Of a DNA stretch of 64,000 nucleotides, positions 3,967-14,863 are shown one piece after another; the stretch's first letter is position 1; every line of letters begins with the position of its first letter. Source of the stretch: Rhodoplanes sp. Z2-YC6860 (GTDB taxonomy: Bacteria > Pseudomonadota > Alphaproteobacteria > Rhizobiales > Xanthobacteraceae); the NCBI RefSeq assembly GCF_001579845.1, contig NZ_CP007440.1, forward strand, positions 2,874,029 to 2,938,028, in the 5' to 3' direction. The position numbers and the translations under genes are program-made. The notes beneath the pieces are model-generated. The model did not search any database. It was given only the letters and a program-made list of their open reading frames with translations, and had not been told where the DNA came from.

Positions 3967-4348
3967 TTCAATGCGCTTCCCAAGATTGCCCCGTCTCGGG
4001 GCCGCCCCCGCTGCGGGCCGAATGACCCTCGCTCCGGTGCGTTCAACGTCCGCGCCCAAGTTCGACCAGTCGGGACCAGCAGCCGGACAGATCGGGCGAC
4101 AGACTGAGCAAAAGAGCGATACCGCATTGGCGCGGAGAATGAATAGGCGAGCCTTTCATCGCAAACGGAAAGGCCGACTTATCCCCCACCTCCATCACTC
4201 AAGAGGCGGAAAAAACCTGTGAGAATCAATCAAATACGGCCAAATGACGACACGCCGCCGTTGACCGGCAAAAAGCCGGTCGCGGCATCGGCGAAATCGC
4301 TGGAGAACGCCAGTTTTGGTCAGTCAGGAGCCAGAATCGATTCGCGGC
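3967..4348. other. 382-base gap between the dsbA-like gene and smc
   Basis: No gene is supported. The gap holds a short hairpin (GACCGGC, AAAAA loop, GCCGGTC, 4263-4281) that could weakly terminate leftward transcripts from the dsbA-like gene, and three GANTC sites, one at 4223-4227 and two abutting at 4334-4343. The smc promoter should be here, but I cannot pick out convincing -35/-10 boxes. Confidence 0.4.
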
Positions 4349-5005
4349 TCAGGATGCCTTGAGCAGCGGGTCGATGACCTTGGCGAGCTCCTCGATGGTC
4401 GCTGCGCCCTTTTGCATCTGGCCGTTGATGAAGATCGTCGGCGTCGAATTGACCTTGAACTTGTCCGTGGCGCGCTTCTGCTCTTCCTGCATGGCGTCGA
4501 GCATCTTCTGGTCCGACAGGCAGGCGTTGAAGCTCTGCTCGGTGAAGCCGGCCTGCTTGGCGATAGCCATCAGCGGCGGGATCGGCTTCTCGACCGCCCA
4601 GGTCCGCTGCATCTGGAACAGCGTCTCGATCAGCGGGAAGAATTTGTCCTTGTCGGCGCAGCGCGCCAGCATCGAAGCGCCGGCGGCCAGCGGATCGAGC
4701 GGGAATTCGCGGAAGATGAACCGAACCTTGCCGGTGTCGATGTAGCGCTTCTTCAGTTCCGGATAGGTGGTCTCGTGGAAATGCGCGCAGTGCGGGCAAG
4801 TCATCGAGGCGTATTCGACGATGGTGACCGGGGCGTCATCCTTGCCGAGCGAGCGGTCGCCGAGCGGGGGAGGGACCAGCAGCTCCAAGGGGGGCACGCT
4901 CTGGGCCGCAGCGGGGCTCGCGTCGATCAGGGCTTCGACGCCTCCCAGCGCCGCGATCATCGCAAACGAGCTGGCGCCGATCAGCAGGGTCCGACGGGTG
5001 ATCAC
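4349..5005 (-). CDS. DsbA-family thiol:disulfide oxidoreductase, exported
   Basis: Thioredoxin-fold protein of about 218 residues. The active-site motif CPHC (about residues 70-73, context MTCPHCAHFHE) is that of DsbA/DsbG-like disulfide oxidoreductases, and the later STPTIFING segment carries the cis-proline loop. The N-terminus (ITRRTLLIGAS, then a hydrophobic stretch ending in PAAAQS) is a signal peptide with a twin-arginine-like pair, so it probably acts in the periplasm. I choose GTG at 5005 because GGAG lies seven bases upstream; an in-frame ATG at 5059 would add an unlikely cysteine-containing leader. It lies between dciA and smc, a neighbourhood common in Rhizobiales. Confidence 0.88.
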   Translation of the reverse strand: MITRRTLLIGASSFAMIAALGGVEALIDASPAAAQSVPPLELLVPPPLGDRSLGKDDAPVTIVEYASMTCPHCAHFHETTYPELKKRYIDTGKVRFIFREFPLDPLAAGASMLARCADKDKFFPLIETLFQMQRTWAVEKPIPPLMAIAKQAGFTEQSFNACLSDQKMLDAMQEEQKRATDKFKVNSTPTIFINGQMQKGAATIEELAKVIDPLLKAS

Positions 5006-5102
5006 CTTAAAACTCCATGGCGTTGAATAAGCAGCCACAATGGCGGCGCAATGTGGCATTGGCAGGCCGCTTCGCCAAGGCCGTCAGGTCACGTTCCGTT
5101 GA

Positions 5103-5576
5103 TCATCCCTTCTTCACGGCGGCCCCAAGCCGGGCCAGCGCCATGCGAAGTTCGTCGTCCGTGATATCGGACAACGTCGCGGCGACCTTGGCGGTTTCAA
5201 CGGGGTCGATCTTCGGCGGAGTGGGGCGGGGCTTGGGCTTCGAGAGCGGCGCCTGGCGCAGCGCGATCCGCCCGACCGCCTGCCAGCCGAAGAAGCGGTT
5301 GACCCGCTCCAGGATGACATGTGTCTGATGCTGGATCTCGAGCGCCGCCGGCCCCTCGGCCCGCAACACGAGCGTGGCGGGCTCGGGGTGCTCGCCCTCC
5401 GGCGTGCGCGGCCATTGCAGCTTCACGGGTTCGGCAAAGGCCGCGATCTCCGCGCCCGCGATGTCCTTCCAGCGGGTCACCAGTTCGGTCGAGGCGAAGC
5501 CTTGCTTCTTGAAGGCGTCCGCCATGAACTCAGCGGTGAGTTCAGCGAGCTTCCGGGTCGGTCGGGGCTTGTTCAT
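5103..5576 (-). CDS. dciA: DUF721 / DciA-like protein
   Basis: 157 residues. The DUF721 core is visible (ADAFKKQGFASTELVTRWKD, then VLRAEGPAALEIQHQ, then VNRFFGWQAVGRI). DciA-type proteins help load the replicative helicase DnaB in bacteria without DnaC, which is the family role; nothing here shows it directly. A Pro/Lys-rich linker (about 110-125) separates the core from a short helical tail (DITDDELRMALARLGAAV). It is divergent from mutY across 29 bases and upstream of the dsbA-like gene on the same strand. Confidence 0.85.
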   Translation of the reverse strand: MNKPRPTRKLAELTAEFMADAFKKQGFASTELVTRWKDIAGAEIAAFAEPVKLQWPRTPEGEHPEPATLVLRAEGPAALEIQHQTHVILERVNRFFGWQAVGRIALRQAPLSKPKPRPTPPKIDPVETAKVAATLSDITDDELRMALARLGAAVKKG

Positions 5577-5605
5577 GGCACAGGGCTCTGCCAGATCGGA
5601 CCATC

Positions 5606-6721
5606 ATGAAAGTATCAGGGGCCGCGGTCCGGAAAAAGCCGAAGCCTGCTCAGGCGGGGGTGCCTGATCCGCAGGCGCTGCTCGACTGGTACGACCGGCA
5701 CCGCCGGCATCTGCCGTGGCGCTCGCCGCCGGGCCGACAGGCCGATCCTTATCATGTCTGGCTGTCGGAGATCATGCTGCAGCAGACCACCGTGAGGGCG
5801 GTCGGTCCTTATTATGTGAAGTTCCTCGGGCTATGGCCGACTGTCGCGGCGCTCGCCGCGGCCCCGCTCGATGACGTGCTGAAGGCCTGGGCCGGGCTCG
5901 GCTATTACGCGAGAGCGCGCAATCTGCATGCCTGTGCCGCGGCGGTGGCGAGGGAGCATGGCGGGCGTTTTCCCGACACCGAGGAGGGACTCCGCGCGCT
6001 GCCCGGCATTGGCGGTTACACATCGGCTGCGATCGCCGCGATTGCCTTCGATCGCCGCGCCGTCGCGATCGACGGCAACATCGAGCGCGTCGTCGCGCGG
6101 CTTTTCGCCATCGAGACCGAGCTGCCTGCAGCGAAGGTCGAAATCCGCGCCCATGCCGACGCGCTGCTGCCGTCGAAGCGGTTCGGCGATTTCACGCAGG
6201 GGCTGATGGATCTTGGCGCCACGATCTGTACGCCGAAGAAACCCGCCTGCGGCATCTGTCCTTGGATGGACGCCTGCGTGGCGCGGGGGCGCGACGACGT
6301 CGAGAGCTTGCCGCGCAAGGCGCCGAAGGTCGAGGGCAAGCTTCGCCGTGGCGCCTCGTTCGTGGCCACGCGCGTGGATGGCTTTGTGCTGGTGCGGACG
6401 CGGCCGTCGAAGGGTTTGCTCGGCGGCATGACCGAAGTGCCGTCGACGGCGTGGACCCATGACTTCGACGAGGACGATGCGCTGACGCATGCGCCGCTGA
6501 AGGCCAAGTGGCGCAAGCTGCCCGGCGTGGTCGAACACGGCTTTACGCACTTTCCGTTGCAGCAGTCGGTCTACGTCGCGGAGCTGCCGGCTAAGACCAA
6601 AGCGCCGGACGGCATGCGCTGGGTCGCCGCAACCGAGCTTCACGGCGAGGCGTTGCCGAACGTGTTTCGCAAGGTCGTCGTCCACGCAGGGCTTCTGGCG
6701 CGCCCGCCGGGCAAACGGTGA
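5606..6721 (+). CDS. mutY: A/G-specific adenine DNA glycosylase MutY
   Basis: 371 residues; removes adenine mispaired with 8-oxoguanine or guanine in base excision repair. The catalytic glutamate lies in SEIMLQQT (E55), the helix-hairpin-helix is LPGIGGYTS (132-140), and the catalytic aspartate is in AIDGNIERV (D156). The 4Fe-4S cluster cysteines C208, C215, C218 and C224 follow the C-x6-C-x2-C-x5-C pattern. The C-terminal part (about 240-371) is the NUDIX-like domain that recognises 8-oxoG, with GLLGGMTEVPS. A 20-residue basic N-terminal extension precedes the glycosylase. The YjbR-type gene follows after six bases. Confidence 0.95.
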   Translation: MKVSGAAVRKKPKPAQAGVPDPQALLDWYDRHRRHLPWRSPPGRQADPYHVWLSEIMLQQTTVRAVGPYYVKFLGLWPTVAALAAAPLDDVLKAWAGLGYYARARNLHACAAAVAREHGGRFPDTEEGLRALPGIGGYTSAAIAAIAFDRRAVAIDGNIERVVARLFAIETELPAAKVEIRAHADALLPSKRFGDFTQGLMDLGATICTPKKPACGICPWMDACVARGRDDVESLPRKAPKVEGKLRRGASFVATRVDGFVLVRTRPSKGLLGGMTEVPSTAWTHDFDEDDALTHAPLKAKWRKLPGVVEHGFTHFPLQQSVYVAELPAKTKAPDGMRWVAATELHGEALPNVFRKVVVHAGLLARPPGKR

Positions 6722-6727
6722 GGATGC

Positions 6728-7063
6728 ATGGCCACGGACAAGGATCTGCGGCGGCTCGCACTCGACCTCGAAGGCACGACGGAAGCGCCGCATTTCGACC
6801 GGACGGCGTTCAAGGTCGCGCGCATCTATGTGACGCTCGCTCCGGACCGCAAGACGGCAAACTTCATGTTCACGCCAGAGGAGCAGGAGTTTAAATGCAT
6901 GCTGGCGCCGGAGGCCTTTGCTCCAGTACCCAACGCATGGGGCAAGCGCGGTGCGACCACCGCGATCCTTGCCAAGCTGAAAGTTGCGGAGCTCAAAAGC
7001 GCGCTGGAGACGGCATATCAGCACGCGTTGCCGAAGAAGCCGAAACGACGTCAAAAATCATAA
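6728..7063 (+). CDS. MmcQ/YjbR-family protein
   Basis: 111 residues with the compact YjbR fold pattern: LALDLEGTTEAPHFDRTAFKV at the start, a central strand pair (YVTLAPD, ANFMFTP), NAWGKRGATTAIL, and a C-terminal helix. YjbR relatives have a double-wing DNA-binding-like fold, but their biochemical role is not established. The basic tail KKPKRRQKS is consistent with nucleic-acid contact. It starts six bases after mutY and is probably co-transcribed. Confidence 0.8.
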   Translation: MATDKDLRRLALDLEGTTEAPHFDRTAFKVARIYVTLAPDRKTANFMFTPEEQEFKCMLAPEAFAPVPNAWGKRGATTAILAKLKVAELKSALETAYQHALPKKPKRRQKS

Positions 7064-7085
7064 AGCGCGACTCAGGAGCAGTGGA

Positions 7086-8045
7086 ATGGGCATCGGCAGG
7101 TTTTTCACGGCGCTGCTTGTTTGCGCCGTCGTGGCGTCGTCTCAAGCGCAGGCGCAATCGTCGCGCACCATCAAGATCATCGTGCCGTCGACGGCGGGCG
7201 GTGGCGCGGACGTGCTGGCGCGCATGCTCGCCGACCAGATCGGCAAGGCGCAGAGCCAGACCATGGTGGTCGAGAACCGGCCTGGCGCCGGCAACACCAT
7301 CGGCACCGAGGCCGTGGCGCGCGCGGCGGCGGACGGCAACACGCTTTTGATCACCACGCCGGAGTTCGTCATCAATCCGCATCTGCGCAAGCTCAACTAC
7401 GATCCGCTGACGAGCTTTGCGCCGATCTGCTACCTCGCGCGCTCGCCACAACTCATCCTGGTCAATCCGGCGACGCCTTATAACACGCTGGCCGATCTGC
7501 TGGACGACGCGCGGCGGAAGCCCGGCGAGTTGACGGTCGCGAGCGCGGGGCCTGCTTCCAGTCCTCATGTCGGCATCGAGCGGATCAAGCACGATGCGAA
7601 GGTCGATTTCACCTTCGTGCCGTTTCAAGGCTCGGGGCCGGCGCTGAATGCGCTGCTCGGCCAGCACGTCACTGCAGCGATGGCGAGCTATCCTAACGTG
7701 ACCGGGCAAGTCCGCGGCGGCCAGCTTCGCGCGATCGCCGTTGCGTCGCTCTCGCGCGTCGATGACCTGCCCAATGTGCCGACCGTGCAGGAAGCGGGCT
7801 TCAAGGATTTCGATCTCGATATCTGGTTCGGCGTGGTGGCGCCGGCCGGCACGCCGCCCGATACGCTCGCGCAGCTTACCTCCTGGTTCAAGGCCGCGCT
7901 GCAGGACCCGGAGATTCTCGCGAAGCTCAAGGCGCAGGGGCTGTTTCCCGTCGGCGCCTGCGGCGACGACTATGCGGCCTTCACGCGCAAGCAGTTCGAC
8001 GACTACGGCCGCGGGATTCGAGAAGCAAACATCAAGCCGAACTGA
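7086..8045 (+). CDS. TctC/Bug-family periplasmic solute-binding protein
   Basis: 319 residues. A cleavable signal peptide (MGIGRFFTALLVCAVVASSQAQAQ) is followed by the TctC core: IKIIVPSTAGGGADVLARMLAD, VVENRPGAGNTIGTEAVA, FVPFQGSGPALNALLGQHV and the VVAPAGTPP signature. These proteins capture carboxylates or other small acids for tripartite tricarboxylate transporters. No tctA or tctB is nearby, so it is an orphan receptor of unknown ligand. AGGAG lies seven bases before ATG 7086. It ends ten bases from the convergent fusion-protein gene. Confidence 0.9.
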   Translation: MGIGRFFTALLVCAVVASSQAQAQSSRTIKIIVPSTAGGGADVLARMLADQIGKAQSQTMVVENRPGAGNTIGTEAVARAAADGNTLLITTPEFVINPHLRKLNYDPLTSFAPICYLARSPQLILVNPATPYNTLADLLDDARRKPGELTVASAGPASSPHVGIERIKHDAKVDFTFVPFQGSGPALNALLGQHVTAAMASYPNVTGQVRGGQLRAIAVASLSRVDDLPNVPTVQEAGFKDFDLDIWFGVVAPAGTPPDTLAQLTSWFKAALQDPEILAKLKAQGLFPVGACGDDYAAFTRKQFDDYGRGIREANIKPN

Positions 8046-8055
8046 GCGGTGAAGA

Positions 8056-10662
8056 TCAGGTTTTCTTCTTTTTACGGCCAACGCGCGTCTTCTTCGCTTT
8101 CTTGACGGGCGCGCGACGGGCGCTCGATTGACCCCGGGATGTGGATGCTGCCCTTCCCCTGGAGTGCGAGGCCGGCGAGCCTTGCGGGTCCGGCTTGACG
8201 ATGCCCGACCAATCCTGGTGCACGTCGGCCGGATATTGATTCAAGGCCACTGAAGGAATGACCTTCGGGTCATTGTAGAGATTCATCATCTCCTTTTCGG
8301 TGATCGTCGGGCCTTCACCGATGGTCTTGTCGCCGTTGCCTGCGTCCCACGCCGCCTGCCAGATCACGGCCAGCAACCGTGTGCCACGCGCCATGCAGGT
8401 GGTCGTCTTGTCCCCGAATTTCGTCCACATGGACGCCGCGCGCGTCTTCTTTTGCACGTCGAGCAGCGACACCCACTCGCTGACGATGGTTTTTGGCGCG
8501 ATATCGGCCTGCGTGGCGTGAACGAGCGTGATCGCAGCTTTCGCTGCGTCATAGCCGTTCGCGATCTCCGGCATGTCTTCCTTGTTTGCAAGCTCGGCAA
8601 TGCGTTTCTTGAGCGCGGTTGCGAGGTCCTTCTGCGTGTAGCCGTAAGCAATCATGTCGTCTTCATAGCCGACATGCACGCCTTCGGCCCGCATCCGGTT
8701 GCCTTCCGATTTCGACCGCTTCACCACGTCGTTCGGATCGCCGTTGGACATGAAGGACGTGTGCAACGGTTGACACGCGTCGCCGAGGTAGTGGATTAGC
8801 ACGCCTCCCGCGCAGAGAAAGAGCTTGGCGTTTCCTTTCTTGGCGGCGGCCACCATGATGTCGAAGATCTGCTTGATCCGGAACGGCAAGGCTCCCCAGT
8901 GCGCGCTGCCGTCGGCCGGCTCCGCTTTGTTTTTGGAGCGTTCGAGCAACTCCTGCCAATGGGCGAATTTCGGTTCGACCGTCTTGAAGTATTGCAGCCA
9001 TGCCGGCGGGTTGAGATAGGTGTCCGGATCGTCGAAATTCAGTTGCAGAAAAGTCTTCTGCTCCTTGTAAACGATATCGATGTCGGCGAAGTGGTTCTTG
9101 TTGTCGGCGGAGCCGCGCGACCCCGGGCCGGCTTTGTGCTTCTTCTTCTCGCCTTCGCCCTGATCGACCAGTGAGAAGTTGACATTGCCCTTCCAGACAT
9201 TGTCGGGAACGTCGGCGAGCGGCACGAAATGGACCGTGTCGCTTCCTTTGGTCAGCACTTTCGGATCGTTGTCGAGCGCCTTGTCCGGCTGAATCGCAAG
9301 GAGATCGATATTCTTGCCGATGAAATCCCGGAGCTTGTTAGATTTCAGCCGGTCGACGGGAAGCGAAAGAGCCCGCCCGATCGCGTAGTGTCCCACCCAT
9401 CCCCAGATGTATTCCTGATCCAGGTTGACGTCGCGGACATAGTCCAGGTCGAGAATGTTGAGGGCCGTGCTCAGCGCAGTGGCGAGCGCGTACGGATGAG
9501 ATTGGACCTTGCCTCCCTCGAGGAACTCTTCCTTTCCCCACAACATCGCGAATGGATAGTAGGTCGTTTTCCCTTCGTCCGAGGAGCCGGGTTTGCCGGT
9601 CTCTTTATGTTCAATGTAGAGAACCGTGCCGGAATCGCCGTGATGGATGGCGAACGTCCGGTCGGGCTGGGGTTGATGAACGCGCCGCCGCTTGTTGTCC
9701 GGCCGCAACGCCTCCTGCGACTCCGGTCCGATCAGGAAATCGCTGACGTATTCGGCACCGCCCAGCGCCTTGTAGCGATAGAAGAGGCCGTGGATCTCAC
9801 CACGGATCAAGCCGCTGATTGCGGACTGACCGACGACCTTCATGGTGATCAGGTTCAAGCTCAGGCTGTTGTCGTAAAGATCGACGACCGGCCCAATCGG
9901 CGCGATGCCGGGCACCTCGGTCTTCCAGGCGAGGATGTCATCGACCGCAACGAGCCCGACATCCATGAGCAAGTGTTGTTCGGTCGACTGAAAGTGCGGA
10001 TAGACCGTCTTGAAATCCTTGCGGGTCAGGCTCTTGTGCGCCGCGATTCCGATTTCGGGTTCGCGGTTTCCTTGCAGGGCGCTGATCGGTGTACCGGGTG
10101 CGCCCACAACATGGCGATTGGTGAGCAGGTAGTAGCTTTCTCCATCGCGCACGACACAGCCGGCGGTGCCTACACGCTCCATGCCTTGCGCGTCTCGATT
10201 CACGATCGGTGTGCCGGGGCCGAGCAGGTTGCGCGGGACCCGCGAGTCTGCCCGCACCATCAGGTCCTTGGCGAAATCCTGCTTCCGCGCCTCGATGACG
10301 CAGACCGGGACAGAACGCCCGTCCGGCAGATACAGCGTTTTCGGGACGACGTCCGAGGGATTGGCGTTTGCCAGCGTGTGCTCTTCTTCCCAGCTTGAAA
10401 CGAACACGTAAACGCACGGCCACGAGTAAGGCCGCACTTGAGAATTGGTAAGCGTCCTGCGGGTGTGTGTCCGTGCAGGTTGCGGGTCCGGATCGCCTTC
10501 GGACGGCCACGGATCGTGAATGCGGATGCGGTACAGCCCGAGCGCAGTCGCGACCACATTTTTCTTGTTCAAGAGATGATAGTGAAACAGGTCGCGCGCT
10601 TCGATGAGATCCTTCAATGACAGCGAAGCAAAATTGCGACTGCTTTTGAATAAAGTATCCAT
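8056..10662 (-). CDS. Predicted trypsin-like serine protease fused to an S1/P1-nuclease-like domain
   Basis: 868 residues, one uninterrupted frame from ATG 10662 (GAGAG just upstream). Residues about 1-120 are unrecognised. Residues about 160-400 look like a chymotrypsin-fold protease with a full triad in order: H184 (LLTNRHVVG), D234 (LLMDVGLVAVDD) and S344 (IHHGDSGTVLY). Residues about 415-690 carry S1/P1 zinc-nuclease/phospholipase C signatures: WGWVGH (H425), NHFADID (H524, D527), HYLGDACQPLH (H624, D628, H634) and GVHVGYEDD (H663, E667 or D668). The last 30 residues are Lys/Arg-rich (KKAKKTRVGRKKKKT). There is no signal peptide or membrane segment. It stands alone between a TctC gene and a hydrolase gene, and base composition looks less GC-rich than the flanks. 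Both catalytic activities are inferred from motifs; a role in defence or as a toxin-like effector is speculation. Confidence 0.75.
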   Translation of the reverse strand: MDTLFKSSRNFASLSLKDLIEARDLFHYHLLNKKNVVATALGLYRIRIHDPWPSEGDPDPQPARTHTRRTLTNSQVRPYSWPCVYVFVSSWEEEHTLANANPSDVVPKTLYLPDGRSVPVCVIEARKQDFAKDLMVRADSRVPRNLLGPGTPIVNRDAQGMERVGTAGCVVRDGESYYLLTNRHVVGAPGTPISALQGNREPEIGIAAHKSLTRKDFKTVYPHFQSTEQHLLMDVGLVAVDDILAWKTEVPGIAPIGPVVDLYDNSLSLNLITMKVVGQSAISGLIRGEIHGLFYRYKALGGAEYVSDFLIGPESQEALRPDNKRRRVHQPQPDRTFAIHHGDSGTVLYIEHKETGKPGSSDEGKTTYYPFAMLWGKEEFLEGGKVQSHPYALATALSTALNILDLDYVRDVNLDQEYIWGWVGHYAIGRALSLPVDRLKSNKLRDFIGKNIDLLAIQPDKALDNDPKVLTKGSDTVHFVPLADVPDNVWKGNVNFSLVDQGEGEKKKHKAGPGSRGSADNKNHFADIDIVYKEQKTFLQLNFDDPDTYLNPPAWLQYFKTVEPKFAHWQELLERSKNKAEPADGSAHWGALPFRIKQIFDIMVAAAKKGNAKLFLCAGGVLIHYLGDACQPLHTSFMSNGDPNDVVKRSKSEGNRMRAEGVHVGYEDDMIAYGYTQKDLATALKKRIAELANKEDMPEIANGYDAAKAAITLVHATQADIAPKTIVSEWVSLLDVQKKTRAASMWTKFGDKTTTCMARGTRLLAVIWQAAWDAGNGDKTIGEGPTITEKEMMNLYNDPKVIPSVALNQYPADVHQDWSGIVKPDPQGSPASHSRGRAASTSRGQSSARRAPVKKAKKTRVGRKKKKT

Positions 10663-10895
10663 GACACTCTCGCTATGATGTTGATCAAATGAAAAAAGAA
10701 TGTCGCGAGCGTGAGGGTACACGGAATGCGTGTATTCGGCAATCGGGTGCTTGCTCGCGTCGTTGAGTTCATCCGGGCGACAACGCGGCGCGCGACGATC
10801 GACACAAATCTGTCACGCGCGCTCGTGCAAGACGGCGCGCGTCGTGATTTCAGCACGCGTCTTCGACGGCGAAATCGTTCGCCGAATGAAAACCG

Positions 10896-11759
10896 CTAAA
10901 ATCCGTAAAGCTTGTTGGCATTCTGCGACATGATGCGGTTGCGGATGGCCGCATCCGGCACCCATTCCAGCATCAGGTCGAGAAGGTCGCCGTCGTTCGG
11001 TATCTGCCTGCCGTCGAGATTGACGTGCGGCCAGTCCGAGCCCCACACCATGCGCTCCGGTGCGTGCTTGACGAACAGTCGCGCGAGCGGCGTCACCGAC
11101 GCATAGGGCATGTCCGAGGGCGTGCAGCGCATCGGGCCCGACAGCTTGAGCCAGACCCGGCCGGTGTCGAGCATGCGCAGCACAGCTGCGACGGCCGGTT
11201 GATCGATGCCGCCTTCGGCCGGGATGCTCGCGAAGTGGTCGAGCACGATGTCGTTCTTCAGCGCCAGAAGCTTGTCGGCATAGTCGACGATGTCGGCGCC
11301 ATGCGGATAGAACTGGATGTGCCAGCCGTGTTCGTGAACGCGGGCCGCGATCTCCTTGGAGTAGTTCGGCACGTGCTGGCCGCGCGCGTCACTCATCATC
11401 CGCATGCCTTTGACGCCGAGCCGCGTCAGCCGCGCGAGTTCTGCGGTCGGGATGTCGTCGCGGACCAGCGCGATGCCGCGAAAGCGCTTCGGGTATTTCG
11501 CGAGCGTGTCGGCGAGCATGGCGTAGTTGCGGCCGTAGCCGCCAGGGCTGACGATCACGCCGGTGCTCAGCCCGAGTGTGTCCTGCAGAGCGAAGAAATG
11601 CTCGGGCAGCGCGTCATGCGCGGTGTAGGGACTGTCCGGCGCGAACGGATACTTCGCGGCAGGTCCGAACAGATGGATGTGGGTGTCGCAGGCGTTGGGT
11701 GGGGCTTTGAGCTTGGGCTTCTTCGGATGGGGATCGGCGATCGTGGTCAGTTTCGGCAT
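10896..11759 (-). CDS. Amidohydrolase-family (LigI-like) metal-dependent hydrolase
   Basis: About 287 residues. The N-terminal metal motif ACDTHIHLFGP and later strands ending in QFYPHGAD, IVLDHFASIP and MVWGSDWPHVN match the COG3618 TIM-barrel amidohydrolases that include 2-pyrone-4,6-dicarboxylate lactonase and related lactone hydrolases. The substrate cannot be read from the sequence. I start at ATG 11759 (MPKLTTIAD), with AGGA eight bases upstream, leaving 31 bases to the TctC gene on the same strand. The pairing with a TctC binding protein suggests uptake and breakdown of an organic acid or lactone. Confidence 0.85.
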   Translation of the reverse strand: MPKLTTIADPHPKKPKLKAPPNACDTHIHLFGPAAKYPFAPDSPYTAHDALPEHFFALQDTLGLSTGVIVSPGGYGRNYAMLADTLAKYPKRFRGIALVRDDIPTAELARLTRLGVKGMRMMSDARGQHVPNYSKEIAARVHEHGWHIQFYPHGADIVDYADKLLALKNDIVLDHFASIPAEGGIDQPAVAAVLRMLDTGRVWLKLSGPMRCTPSDMPYASVTPLARLFVKHAPERMVWGSDWPHVNLDGRQIPNDGDLLDLMLEWVPDAAIRNRIMSQNANKLYGF

Positions 11760-12904: not shown

Positions 12905-13255
12905 ATGTCGATACAGCGTCACGAGAACGGCCCCCGCATGTCACGCGTGGTGGTGCACAACGGCACGGTCTATCTCGCGGGCCTCACCGCTGACGCAACC
13001 GTCGGCAAGAGCGTCGGTGAGCAGACCAAGGAAATTCTCGACAAGATCGACGGCCTCCTGAAACAGGGCGGCAGTGACAAGTCGAAGCTCCTGCAGGCCG
13101 TGATCTGGTTGCAGGACATTCGCGTGGTCGACGAGTTCAACAAGGTTTGGGATGCCTGGGTGGTGCCCGGTCAGACTCCGGCGCGGGCCTGCATCGAGGC
13201 GCGACTGCAGTCGCCTGCCAAGATGATCGAGATCCAGGTGACGGCTGCGCAATAA
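12905..13255 (+). CDS. RidA (YjgF/YER057c)-family protein
   Basis: 116 residues, usual RidA length. The family blocks are visible: RVVVHNGTVYLAGLTA, EQTKEILDKIDGLLKQGGSDKSKLLQAVIWLQDI, and PARACIEARLQSPAKMIEIQVTA, where the arginine of PARA matches the carboxylate-binding arginine that supports imine deaminase activity. RidA enzymes hydrolyse reactive 2-aminoacrylate-type enamines and imines in the cytoplasm; some relatives do other things, so the exact role is open. It is divergent from the TctC-hydrolase pair. Confidence 0.9.
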   Translation: MSIQRHENGPRMSRVVVHNGTVYLAGLTADATVGKSVGEQTKEILDKIDGLLKQGGSDKSKLLQAVIWLQDIRVVDEFNKVWDAWVVPGQTPARACIEARLQSPAKMIEIQVTAAQ

Positions 13256-13573
13256 CGCGCGAACGTTGTAAAAGGCAGACGGCGTCGCGGCGGTGAGCCG
13301 CGGCGCCTTATCATTTGATGCGTTCGGCATTGAGCCCGCATCAAAAGCAACCGCGGCGTCATGTGCTGATGCTTACGGAAGTTTCATGAATCCTGCGGCA
13401 TAAGCCCGCTGGCTCCAAATCAGTCTCTGATTATCGAGCAAATCAAGCGGCAATAGCGCGGCGTAATTCGCCATAAGCGCCAACGCGGCTTACGCCTTCC
13501 GCAAATCAGGCTTACCTTGTTGTTCGTTCTCGCGTGCCATGTATCCGCATTCATACGGATAGGCGAAGCCAGC
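13256..13573. other. 318-base gap with a hairpin and a second inverted repeat
   Basis: A stem near 13281-13307 (GGCGTCGCGG against CCGCGGCGCC, one mismatch) follows ridA by about 25 bases and may terminate it. Next comes a perfect 9-bp inverted repeat, TTTGATGCG at 13314-13322 and CGCATCAAA at 13337-13345. The remainder is A/T-richer than the genes and probably carries the promoter for the zinc-ribbon gene; no ORF here is convincing. Confidence 0.4.
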
Positions 13574-13882
13574 ATGAAGGCTCTAAGTTCGATCGTTCCT
13601 GAAACCACTGGCTCGGACGTTGAACGCAAGCCTCGCGCTCTTGATCAGCATCAAAGCGCGGTTCGCATCGAGAGCGACATGAAACCGATGTGCCCCCATT
13701 GCGGAAGCCTGATGTCGTTTTCCGGCATCAAATCCCGTTCTGGCACGCCGTCCGAACTTCGGACGTTCTGCTGCGAACCGTGCCATTGCGTGTTCAGCGA
13801 TGCGTTGACGCCGACTGGAACTGCGGCGCGCGCGATGCTGCTGGACCTGCAGGCCAACGTCCAACTCGGCGCGATGCATTAA
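13574..13882 (+). CDS. Small zinc-ribbon-like hypothetical protein
   Basis: 102 residues from ATG 13574. The centre holds two cysteine knuckles, CPHCG (context MKPMCPHCGSLMSFSG) and CCEPCHCVFSD, spaced as in a zinc ribbon; the N-terminal third looks disordered and the C-terminus (AARAMLLDLQANVQL) is helical. The family is not recognised. The frame is open back to an ATG at 13517, but the extra leader looks less likely; the start is uncertain. It stands alone with no neighbour that suggests a function. Confidence 0.55.
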   Translation: MKALSSIVPETTGSDVERKPRALDQHQSAVRIESDMKPMCPHCGSLMSFSGIKSRSGTPSELRTFCCEPCHCVFSDALTPTGTAARAMLLDLQANVQLGAMH

Positions 13883-13942: not shown

Positions 13943-14863
13943 CTACATCGTCCGGCGACGCATCTGCTGATCGTCGAAATGCACCGGGTCCATCGCCCAC
14001 AATGCGGCGTCATGGCCTTGCGCATAATTGCGCGCGGTCTGCGTCGGATTTCTATTCACCAGCGGCCGCAGGAACATCGGATGCGTGAGGCTTCGCACCT
14101 CATGCTCGATGGTGAACAGGTGCTTGCCGGTGTCGAGATCGACAATGTCGCGGAACCGGTACTGGAACTGGTTGTCCTCGCGGTTGACGAGGCCGCGCTC
14201 GCCGAGCCGCTGGTGCGGGCCCGAGAAGCTCGACACATAGATCTGCACGTGATGCTCGTCGTAATCCGGCAGCGGCTTGTCGGTCTCGCGGAACAGCAGA
14301 TACTGGTTCTTGCCGACCGTGACCTTCGCGGTGGTTCCGTCGCCGTTCACCACCGTGGCCGGCGTGCCGATCATGTGCTCGTAGAATTTTGCGATGCCCT
14401 TGGCGGTGCCGACCGGCACGTCGAACTCCACGTAGGGAATGCCGAGCACGATGCGGCCGAAGCGGTCGGCGTCTGGCTCGTGCAGGCGAACGCGGTTGCC
14501 CCACGGGCAGATCGCCTCGACGTAATCGTTGTGCTCCGAGAAATCGAACTTGGTGTCGGCGAGCTTCGGTTTCACCGTCTTGAGGCGGTTGAGCAGCGCC
14601 TCGCGGCCTTCGATGACGATGCCGGTCTTGCCGCGCAGCACCTGCGCCTTGCCGGTCGGCAGATGGAACTGGCTGCGGCCGACGTTCATCCACATGTTGT
14701 CGTCCATCACCTGCAAATACGGATCGCGGGTGAGGCCCAGGCCTGCGCCATAAAACAACTGCGCCAGCCGTTGATCGGGGATCGTGACGTTGACGTGCTC
14801 GAGGTGGACGGAGTTGCCGAGGTCCTCGGCGGCGCGGTCGAAGGTCTTCTGCATCGGGTCCAT
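13943..14863 (-). CDS. VOC-fold (glyoxalase/dioxygenase-like) protein
   Basis: 306 residues with two vicinal-oxygen-chelate modules: one starts at VHLEHVNVTIPDQRLAQLFYGAGLGL, the second at GIPYVEFDVPVGTAKGIAKFYEHMIG. Candidate metal ligands include the first histidine (LEHVNV), EHHVQIYV and FTIEHEVRS. It resembles uncharacterised glyoxalase-like proteins rather than a named dioxygenase, so the substrate is unknown. It is divergent from the SMP-30 gene across about 110 bases. Confidence 0.75.
   Translation of the reverse strand: MDPMQKTFDRAAEDLGNSVHLEHVNVTIPDQRLAQLFYGAGLGLTRDPYLQVMDDNMWMNVGRSQFHLPTGKAQVLRGKTGIVIEGREALLNRLKTVKPKLADTKFDFSEHNDYVEAICPWGNRVRLHEPDADRFGRIVLGIPYVEFDVPVGTAKGIAKFYEHMIGTPATVVNGDGTTAKVTVGKNQYLLFRETDKPLPDYDEHHVQIYVSSFSGPHQRLGERGLVNREDNQFQYRFRDIVDLDTGKHLFTIEHEVRSLTHPMFLRPLVNRNPTQTARNYAQGHDAALWAMDPVHFDDQQMRRRTM

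Follow-up and report, generated by a model that had tools for sequence, protein, structure and literature searches.

The window, that is, the whole stretch of 64,000 nucleotides that was analysed, carries on its minus strand an intact frame that opens with an ATG at 10662 and whose stop codon ends at 8056, encoding a protein of 868 residues. The original prediction had described this frame (8056-10662, 868 codons), without giving a strand, as a trypsin-like protease joined to an S1/P1-nuclease-like domain, and its extent is upheld here. An upstream GTG (10722), which would yield 888 residues, is disfavoured as a start, because both Rhizobium copies of the protein open with the same MDTLFKSS as the chain that begins with the ATG at 10662. 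The codon composition is gene-like, with a third-position GC of 0.75 as against mostly 0.8 or more in the neighbouring genes. The features of the gene are as follows.

8056..10662, minus strand: whole gene, 868 codons plus stop (open frame and full-length homologues)
9436..10662, minus strand: front half, residues 1-409, predicted NAL1-like N-terminal region (SLxDL..ARD..H.H) plus trypsin-like protease (PDB profile, Pfam Nal1_C)
10111..10113, minus strand: H184, predicted catalytic His (invariant in 6/6 copies)
9961..9963, minus strand: D234, predicted catalytic Asp (invariant in 6/6)
9631..9633, minus strand: S344, predicted catalytic Ser, in GDSG (invariant in 6/6)
9403..9408, minus strand: I419/W420, predicted cut; W420 is the putative counterpart of the N-terminal Trp ligand of S1/P1 enzymes (Trp in 6/6)
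8227..9405, minus strand: back half, residues W420-812, predicted S1/P1 nuclease/zinc-PLC-like domain (PDB profile, ligand map)
8059..8226, minus strand: residues 813-868, Lys/Arg-rich tail (not conserved in the family)

Surroundings and distribution of the gene

Nine of the ten window neighbours scanned have Pfam matches, all of them ordinary: SMC, a DsbA-like thioredoxin, DciA, MutY, two TctC receptors, an amidohydrolase, an SMP-30-like protein and a CcrM-like methylase, the last being our label for a protein with N6_N4_Mtase plus RAMA. The window copy is surrounded by housekeeping or metabolic genes and not by defence genes. Ten congeners were searched and eight of their loci compared (G004 and G007 are not among these); in all eight, the block with MutY and the amidohydrolase is present and the gene is missing from it. 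At two congener loci a TctC gene stands between them, its match lying 57 and 21 bases from the amidohydrolase match. As the congeners keep this block without the gene, the window gene would most simply be an insertion into it, and the place between MutY and the amidohydrolase may be one that can take varied inserts. GC content is 0.58-0.61 over 8200-11199 of the window, against 0.64-0.68 over 4600-8199, a drop that is no proof by itself since comparably low values occur at 4000-4599 (0.607) and 13000-13599 (0.577).

Some other observations concern the same stretch. In G006, the closest congener by its amidohydrolase, alpha-amylase-type genes lie between MutY and the amidohydrolase (L046:4952-9525). 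A 306-residue frame at 13943-14863 of the window has no Pfam match and is 74-86% identical in the congener loci that cover it. At 2020-2116, antisense within the SMC gene, ARAGORN places a 97-base tRNA-Ile, which is probably a false call.

The protein occurs once in its own genome, a single 8.19-Mb contig, and in none of 40 relatives of that genome. Eight copies were found altogether, and the original prediction's proposal to look for the same domain order in other genomes was thereby answered with full-length homologues. Six copies are intact (window, L002, L003, L005, L006 and L026) and come from the window genome, two Rhizobium, an Ensifer, a Sphingobium and one further genome, those of Rhizobium having been found in a search of a genome collection. 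The other two are broken plasmid copies, that of Neorhizobium galegae (L004:7980-10276) being split in four pieces, three frames of which share 98.6-100% identity with the intact Ensifer copy, and that of Sinorhizobium sp. B11 (L007:7974-10324) in two. The five other intact copies are 38-71% identical to the window protein in the front half and 35-61% in the back half. Because all six intact copies keep the layout, the catalytic triad and nine predicted zinc ligands, the joining of two genes by a sequencing error, named originally as a possible source of the frame, is ruled out. Between the two close Rhizobium copies dN/dS is about 0.11 and 0.08 (back half about 0.08) and, as judged from this pair, substitution is purifying in both halves.

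Of 72,556 plasmid records only four carry the gene; the front half occurs in just these four, each of which has the back half too, and on the plasmids the protein is annotated as hypothetical. A profile built from five copies gave no additional full-length copy in 384 further genomes of the class and, in 345 other genomes of the R. leucaenae family, one copy besides the centre genome. Carriage by phages is rejected, given that none of 50,697 phage records has the gene and that, in viral contigs, 31 stretches fit a pattern and none is a relative. Weak matches were set aside: L027 is HtrA-like by eye, and in G474 a frame of 353 residues matches profile positions 157-397 only. L009-L012 were likewise not counted, as they are S1/P1-type proteins with signal-peptide-like N-termini; by profile they are the closest relatives of the back half that were found, their last ligand is Glu, and three of them do not reach the cut-off of Pfam PF02265. 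The gene is rare, patchy and mobile.

A comparison of neighbours, in which the near-identical pairs between L002 and L003 were skipped, gave no partner gene common to the copies. Besides the family gene itself and antisense frames, the neighbour types that recur are a cyclase pair, a LysR pair and dehydrogenase subunits. The cyclases (adenylate/guanylate type) lie upstream of two copies in opposite orientation (L005:5094-6671 and L054:9946-11154) and are 30% identical, which may be chance. The Sphingobium copy lies near conjugation genes, which may simply belong to its plasmid.

The two halves of the protein

A six-row profile of residues 1-409, compared with the PDB, matches NARROW LEAF 1 (NAL1) best, with an E value of 2.8e-9 over profile positions 82-364. 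NAL1 accounts for nine of the 23 distinct PDB sequences listed (E 2.8e-9 to 6.9e-8), the next best being DegS at 0.14. The Pfam family Nal1_C is above its cut-off in four of the six proteins scanned (P0004, P0005, P0006 and P0014), below it in P0001 and not listed for P0002, P0003 having been outside the scan. The residues of the triad, H184, D234 and S344, as well as H624 in the back half, stand where they had originally been placed. On this evidence the front half is a predicted trypsin-like serine protease of the NAL1 type. Five copies have Ala or Gly six positions before the catalytic Ser and one has a gap there, Asp being present in none; specificity for Lys/Arg would therefore not be expected, a reading that depends on the alignment at this place and on trypsin numbering.

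The corresponding profile of residues 410-812 matches Endonuclease 2 in the PDB, which is AtBFN2 (PMC4144908), modestly (E 0.0015) and over profile positions 165-260 only. The Trp stretch at the start of the back half aligns with residue 1 of that chain, with a score of its own of -2.7 bits. As this match is modest, the case for an S1/P1 identity rests on the metal ligands, which are predicted to be W420, H425, D487, H524, H624, D628, H634, H663 and E667 and are the same in 6/6 copies. Seven S1/P1-type proteins from other genomes, whose start codons were chosen by us, served as controls, and in these the ligands are present, in the same order, in 6, 7, 7, 7, 7, 7, 6, 6 and 7 of the seven (the last as Glu or Asp). 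The ligands of SmNuc1 are given as W27, H32, D71, H88, H141, D145, H151, H175 and D179 (PMC11705217). The zinc motifs named in the original prediction begin at residues 420 (WGWVGH), 523 (NHFADID), 624 (HYLGDACQPLH) and 661 (GVHVGYEDD); it lacked the Asp ligand D487, which came from the alignment with the controls. D484 was also considered for this role but gave way to D487 once ordinary relatives were aligned. Against the Pfam family S1-P1 (PF02265), six proteins or pieces score 13.8-21.6 bits, all below the curated cut-off of 29.5, and Zn_dep_PLPC is below its cut-off in every family protein scanned. Taken together, the back half is predicted to be S1/P1-nuclease/zinc-PLC-like.

The presence of both domains in one protein, with the protease first, is thus borne out by the profile matches and the six intact copies. 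The Lys/Arg-rich tail, which had been made part of the design, is present, with Lys or Arg at 16 of the last 50 residues, but is rejected as a design element since this number varies across the six copies (16, 4, 5, 3, 9 and 5). Confirmation of the two domains by AlphaFold, also proposed originally, did not succeed: three-row alignments that left out P0004, P0005 and P0014 gave a mean pLDDT of 28.9 for the whole protein and 34.2 for the back half, and no usable model.

The internal tryptophan and a possible activating cut

In S1/P1 enzymes a Trp at the mature N-terminus is described as itself binding zinc (PMC5201275, PMC11705217). In SmNuc1 the metal is bound through the main chain of the N-terminal Trp27 (PMC11705217), and for another S1/P1 enzyme the Conclusions of the paper name the corresponding residue Trp26. 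In all seven controls the aromatic ligand (Trp in six, Tyr in one) lies at residues 23-34, directly after a signal-peptide-like stretch, whereas in the six fused copies the ligand Trp lies at residues 392-425, directly after the protease. L404 is the last invariant residue of the front half, and its distance to W420 is 16 residues, ungapped, in 6/6 copies, although the sequence in between drifts. Position 419 is occupied by I, I, I, T, Y and T across the six, with Ile in the window and both Rhizobium copies and Thr or Tyr in the other three, and the residues preceding it are not conserved; a specific Ile ahead of the cut was therefore rejected as a family rule.

By hydropathy, the absence of a signal peptide from the window protein, claimed originally, extends to the fused proteins generally, in which no hydrophobic N-terminus is apparent. 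Within the first 45 residues, the most hydrophobic 12-residue stretch averages 0.79-1.71 in the fused proteins, against 1.95-2.27 in four controls measured, and the highest fused value (1.71) begins only at residue 34 of the L026 copy. Nor is a membrane segment apparent in them, no 19-residue stretch exceeding a hydropathy of 1.36. As the protease occupies the place that the signal peptide has in the secreted kin, the simplest reading is that it would do the same job, exposing the Trp as removal of a signal peptide would, but under control.

We therefore propose, with a probability of roughly 0.4, that the gene product is a single-chain zymogen inside the cell, in which a NAL1-type protease activates an S1/P1-type nuclease by a cut at 419/420. 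The back half would be a three-zinc nuclease that begins with W420. In the uncut chain W420 would be held in a peptide bond and one of the nine metal ligands impaired, so that the nuclease should be off or weak. Upon a trigger, the protease would cut at 419/420, either in its own chain or in that of a neighbouring molecule; W420, its amino group now free, would complete the zinc cluster, and the activated enzyme would degrade nucleic acid inside the cell, its likely use being that of an accessory self-killing or anti-invader gene. We infer the cut, its effect, nucleic acid as the substrate, the trigger and the role alike. That the protease controls or releases the nuclease part, as had been suggested, would be the best reading, and the internal Trp ligand would supply a chemical reason for it. 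The fuller statement, which we hold tentatively and at rather less than even odds, is that of a one-gene suicide or defence enzyme whose activating cut itself creates a catalytic metal ligand, the amino group of W420 closing the three-zinc site. The gate would then be a missing ligand, not a blocking loop, and a nuclease fold that is normally secreted would have reached the cytosol through replacement of its signal peptide by a protease.

Counting in favour of a zymogen are the matches to NAL1 and Endonuclease 2, the triad and ligands kept in 6/6 copies, the place of the ligand Trp as compared with the seven controls, the fixed 16-residue spacing, purifying selection, and the rarity and mobility of the gene. 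A published parallel exists in Hachiman, whose pro-nuclease is switched on when a trypsin-like protease cuts it after Ile, and the same principle of a protease activating a nuclease is stated for AVAST (PMC12799240). Counting against it, residue 419 and those before it are unconserved, unlike the cut-site Ile residues of HamM, which are described as highly conserved (PMC12799240), the Endonuclease 2 match is modest and the two Pfam families of the back half stay below their cut-offs. LypC, the nearest published protease-nuclease fusion, is moreover reported to lyse without its nuclease residues (PMC13236601), and the housekeeping or metabolic neighbours of the window copy count against it too.

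A conflict or defence role, raised originally as a possibility, is plausible, on indirect grounds. The PADLOC profile 'trypsin-like' (PDLC03017) matches 5/5 family proteins scanned, with E values of 7.9e-29 to 8.4e-47, and each third of P0001, and it matches none of seven ordinary S1/P1-type and none of three NAL1-type proteins. It also matches each third of P0009 (E 8.8e-4, 1.4e-20 and 3.7e-18). This is a helical-trypsin-P-loop protein, encoded in another genome, which is similar to LypA in the description of PMC13236601; the front-half profile (residues 1-409) does not match it. Since each third of P0009 matches as well, PDLC03017 is a mixed profile, and its match was rejected as proof of a defence role; it gives a hint that relatives had been gathered in a defence context, and does not confer membership. 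Rarity, carriage on plasmids, insertion, two broken copies among eight and the lack of shared partners fit an accessory conflict gene, and would suit other accessory genes as well. Separately, G500 has two overlapping genes that resemble LypA-type CARD-NLR loci (L013:197-3528), the first encoding a Trypsin_2 protein with a match to PADLOC 'nacht' (E 9.7e-80), a name that fits badly, and the second a helical-trypsin-P-loop protein that matches PADLOC 'trypsin-like'.

The alternative that survives best, although we consider it unlikely, is that no cut is needed and that two catalytic domains sit side by side, the protease acting on another protein and the nuclease being active uncut, with W420 used for packing or as a carbonyl ligand. 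The lack of a conserved residue ahead of W420 favours this, as does the fixed length of the linker, which would suit a structural spacer. However, S1/P1 zinc clusters are described as using the main chain of the Trp at the N-terminus, and the equivalent residue follows a signal-peptide-like stretch in every control.

It is improbable that the back half is a phospholipase C, with the protease controlling an attack on the membrane from inside. The last ligand of zinc PLC is Glu, as is E667 in 6/6 copies, and Zn_dep_PLPC outscores S1-P1 for P0001 and P0004; but S1-P1 outscores Zn_dep_PLPC for P0002, P0005, P0007 and P0014, Glu is also the last ligand in five of the seven controls, three of which (L011, L012 and L031) are S1-P1 matches by score, and the PDB match is a nuclease. 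The effectors of CARD-NLR systems are reported to be phospholipases or endonucleases (PMC13236601), a point on the side of the phospholipase, and against it the W-to-H spacing of 5 matches that of SmNuc1.

A back half that is no longer an enzyme and serves in binding or folding, leaving the protease as the effector, appears slightly less probable again. It would parallel LypC, whose endonuclease residues are dispensable for lysis and which has a close homologue without the domain (PMC13236601), but the nine ligands are the same in 6/6 copies down to 35% identity, and the pair of Rhizobium copies gives a back-half dN/dS of about 0.08. It is very improbable that the protein is delivered as an effector to a eukaryotic or bacterial target cell, the basic tail serving as a nuclear or nucleic-acid signal: several copies come from plant-associated bacteria and the tail of the window copy is NLS-like, but the tail is not conserved, none of the ten window neighbours scanned is a secretion-system gene, and the conjugation genes near the Sphingobium copy are perhaps just the plasmid's own.

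Relation to known systems

The likeness to the NAL1 family lies in the profile match over the front half and in the His-Asp-Ser triad kept in all six intact copies. NAL1, a plant protein, is not known to have a nuclease half, whereas the protease of the window family is fused to an S1/P1-like domain. With the S1/P1 nucleases (PF02265; S1, AtBFN2 and SmNuc1; PLC/P1 superfamily) the family shares the nine ligand positions, the PDB profile match and the spacings W+5 H, H+4 D, H+10 H and H+4 acid. It differs in a ligand Trp that is internal in the encoded protein and would be N-terminal only after a cut, in the protease in front, in the lack of an apparent signal peptide, in a last ligand that is Glu instead of Asp, and in scores below the PF02265 cut-off.

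Nucleases that are switched on by proteases have recently emerged as a theme in bacterial immunity (PMC12799240). In the Hachiman, AVAST, Lamassu and DRT pairs, as described there, the nuclease has a metallo-beta-lactamase fold and in every case a gene of its own, the protease comes fused to an immune protein, and blocking insertions gate the nuclease (PMC12799240). If the predicted cut is real, the window family would share with these pairs a trypsin-like protease that switches on a nuclease, but it differs in being one chain with an S1/P1-like fold, and Pfam gives no match to a metallo-beta-lactamase nuclease in the protein or its ten window neighbours.

Closer in architecture is LypC of LypABC, encoded in a CARD-NLR operon, in which a trypsin-like peptidase and a NucA-type nuclease are reported always to be in one protein (PMC13236601); in System 3 the same two domains are in some cases in one protein (PMC7159879). 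The window family resembles both in having a trypsin-like peptidase and a nuclease in a single protein, and differs in that its nuclease is S1/P1-like, with no Pfam match to a NucA-type endonuclease domain in the window protein up to an E value of 1. It differs also in that no partner gene is seen, the CARD-NLR genes lypA and lypB not being among the ten window neighbours.

The original prediction knew of no description of the architecture. This holds for the exact domain pair, a NAL1-type protease and an S1/P1-like nuclease in one protein not being found in word searches of open-licence papers, but not for the broader design, for which these precedents exist. A protease and a nuclease in one protein were thus already known, and the pairing of a NAL1-type with an S1/P1-like domain would be a new combination. 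If the proposed activation is correct, the cut product would start with Trp, and the family would add another nuclease fold to the protease-switched nucleases, with both parts joined in one chain, no partner gene, and the switch set by a single metal ligand.
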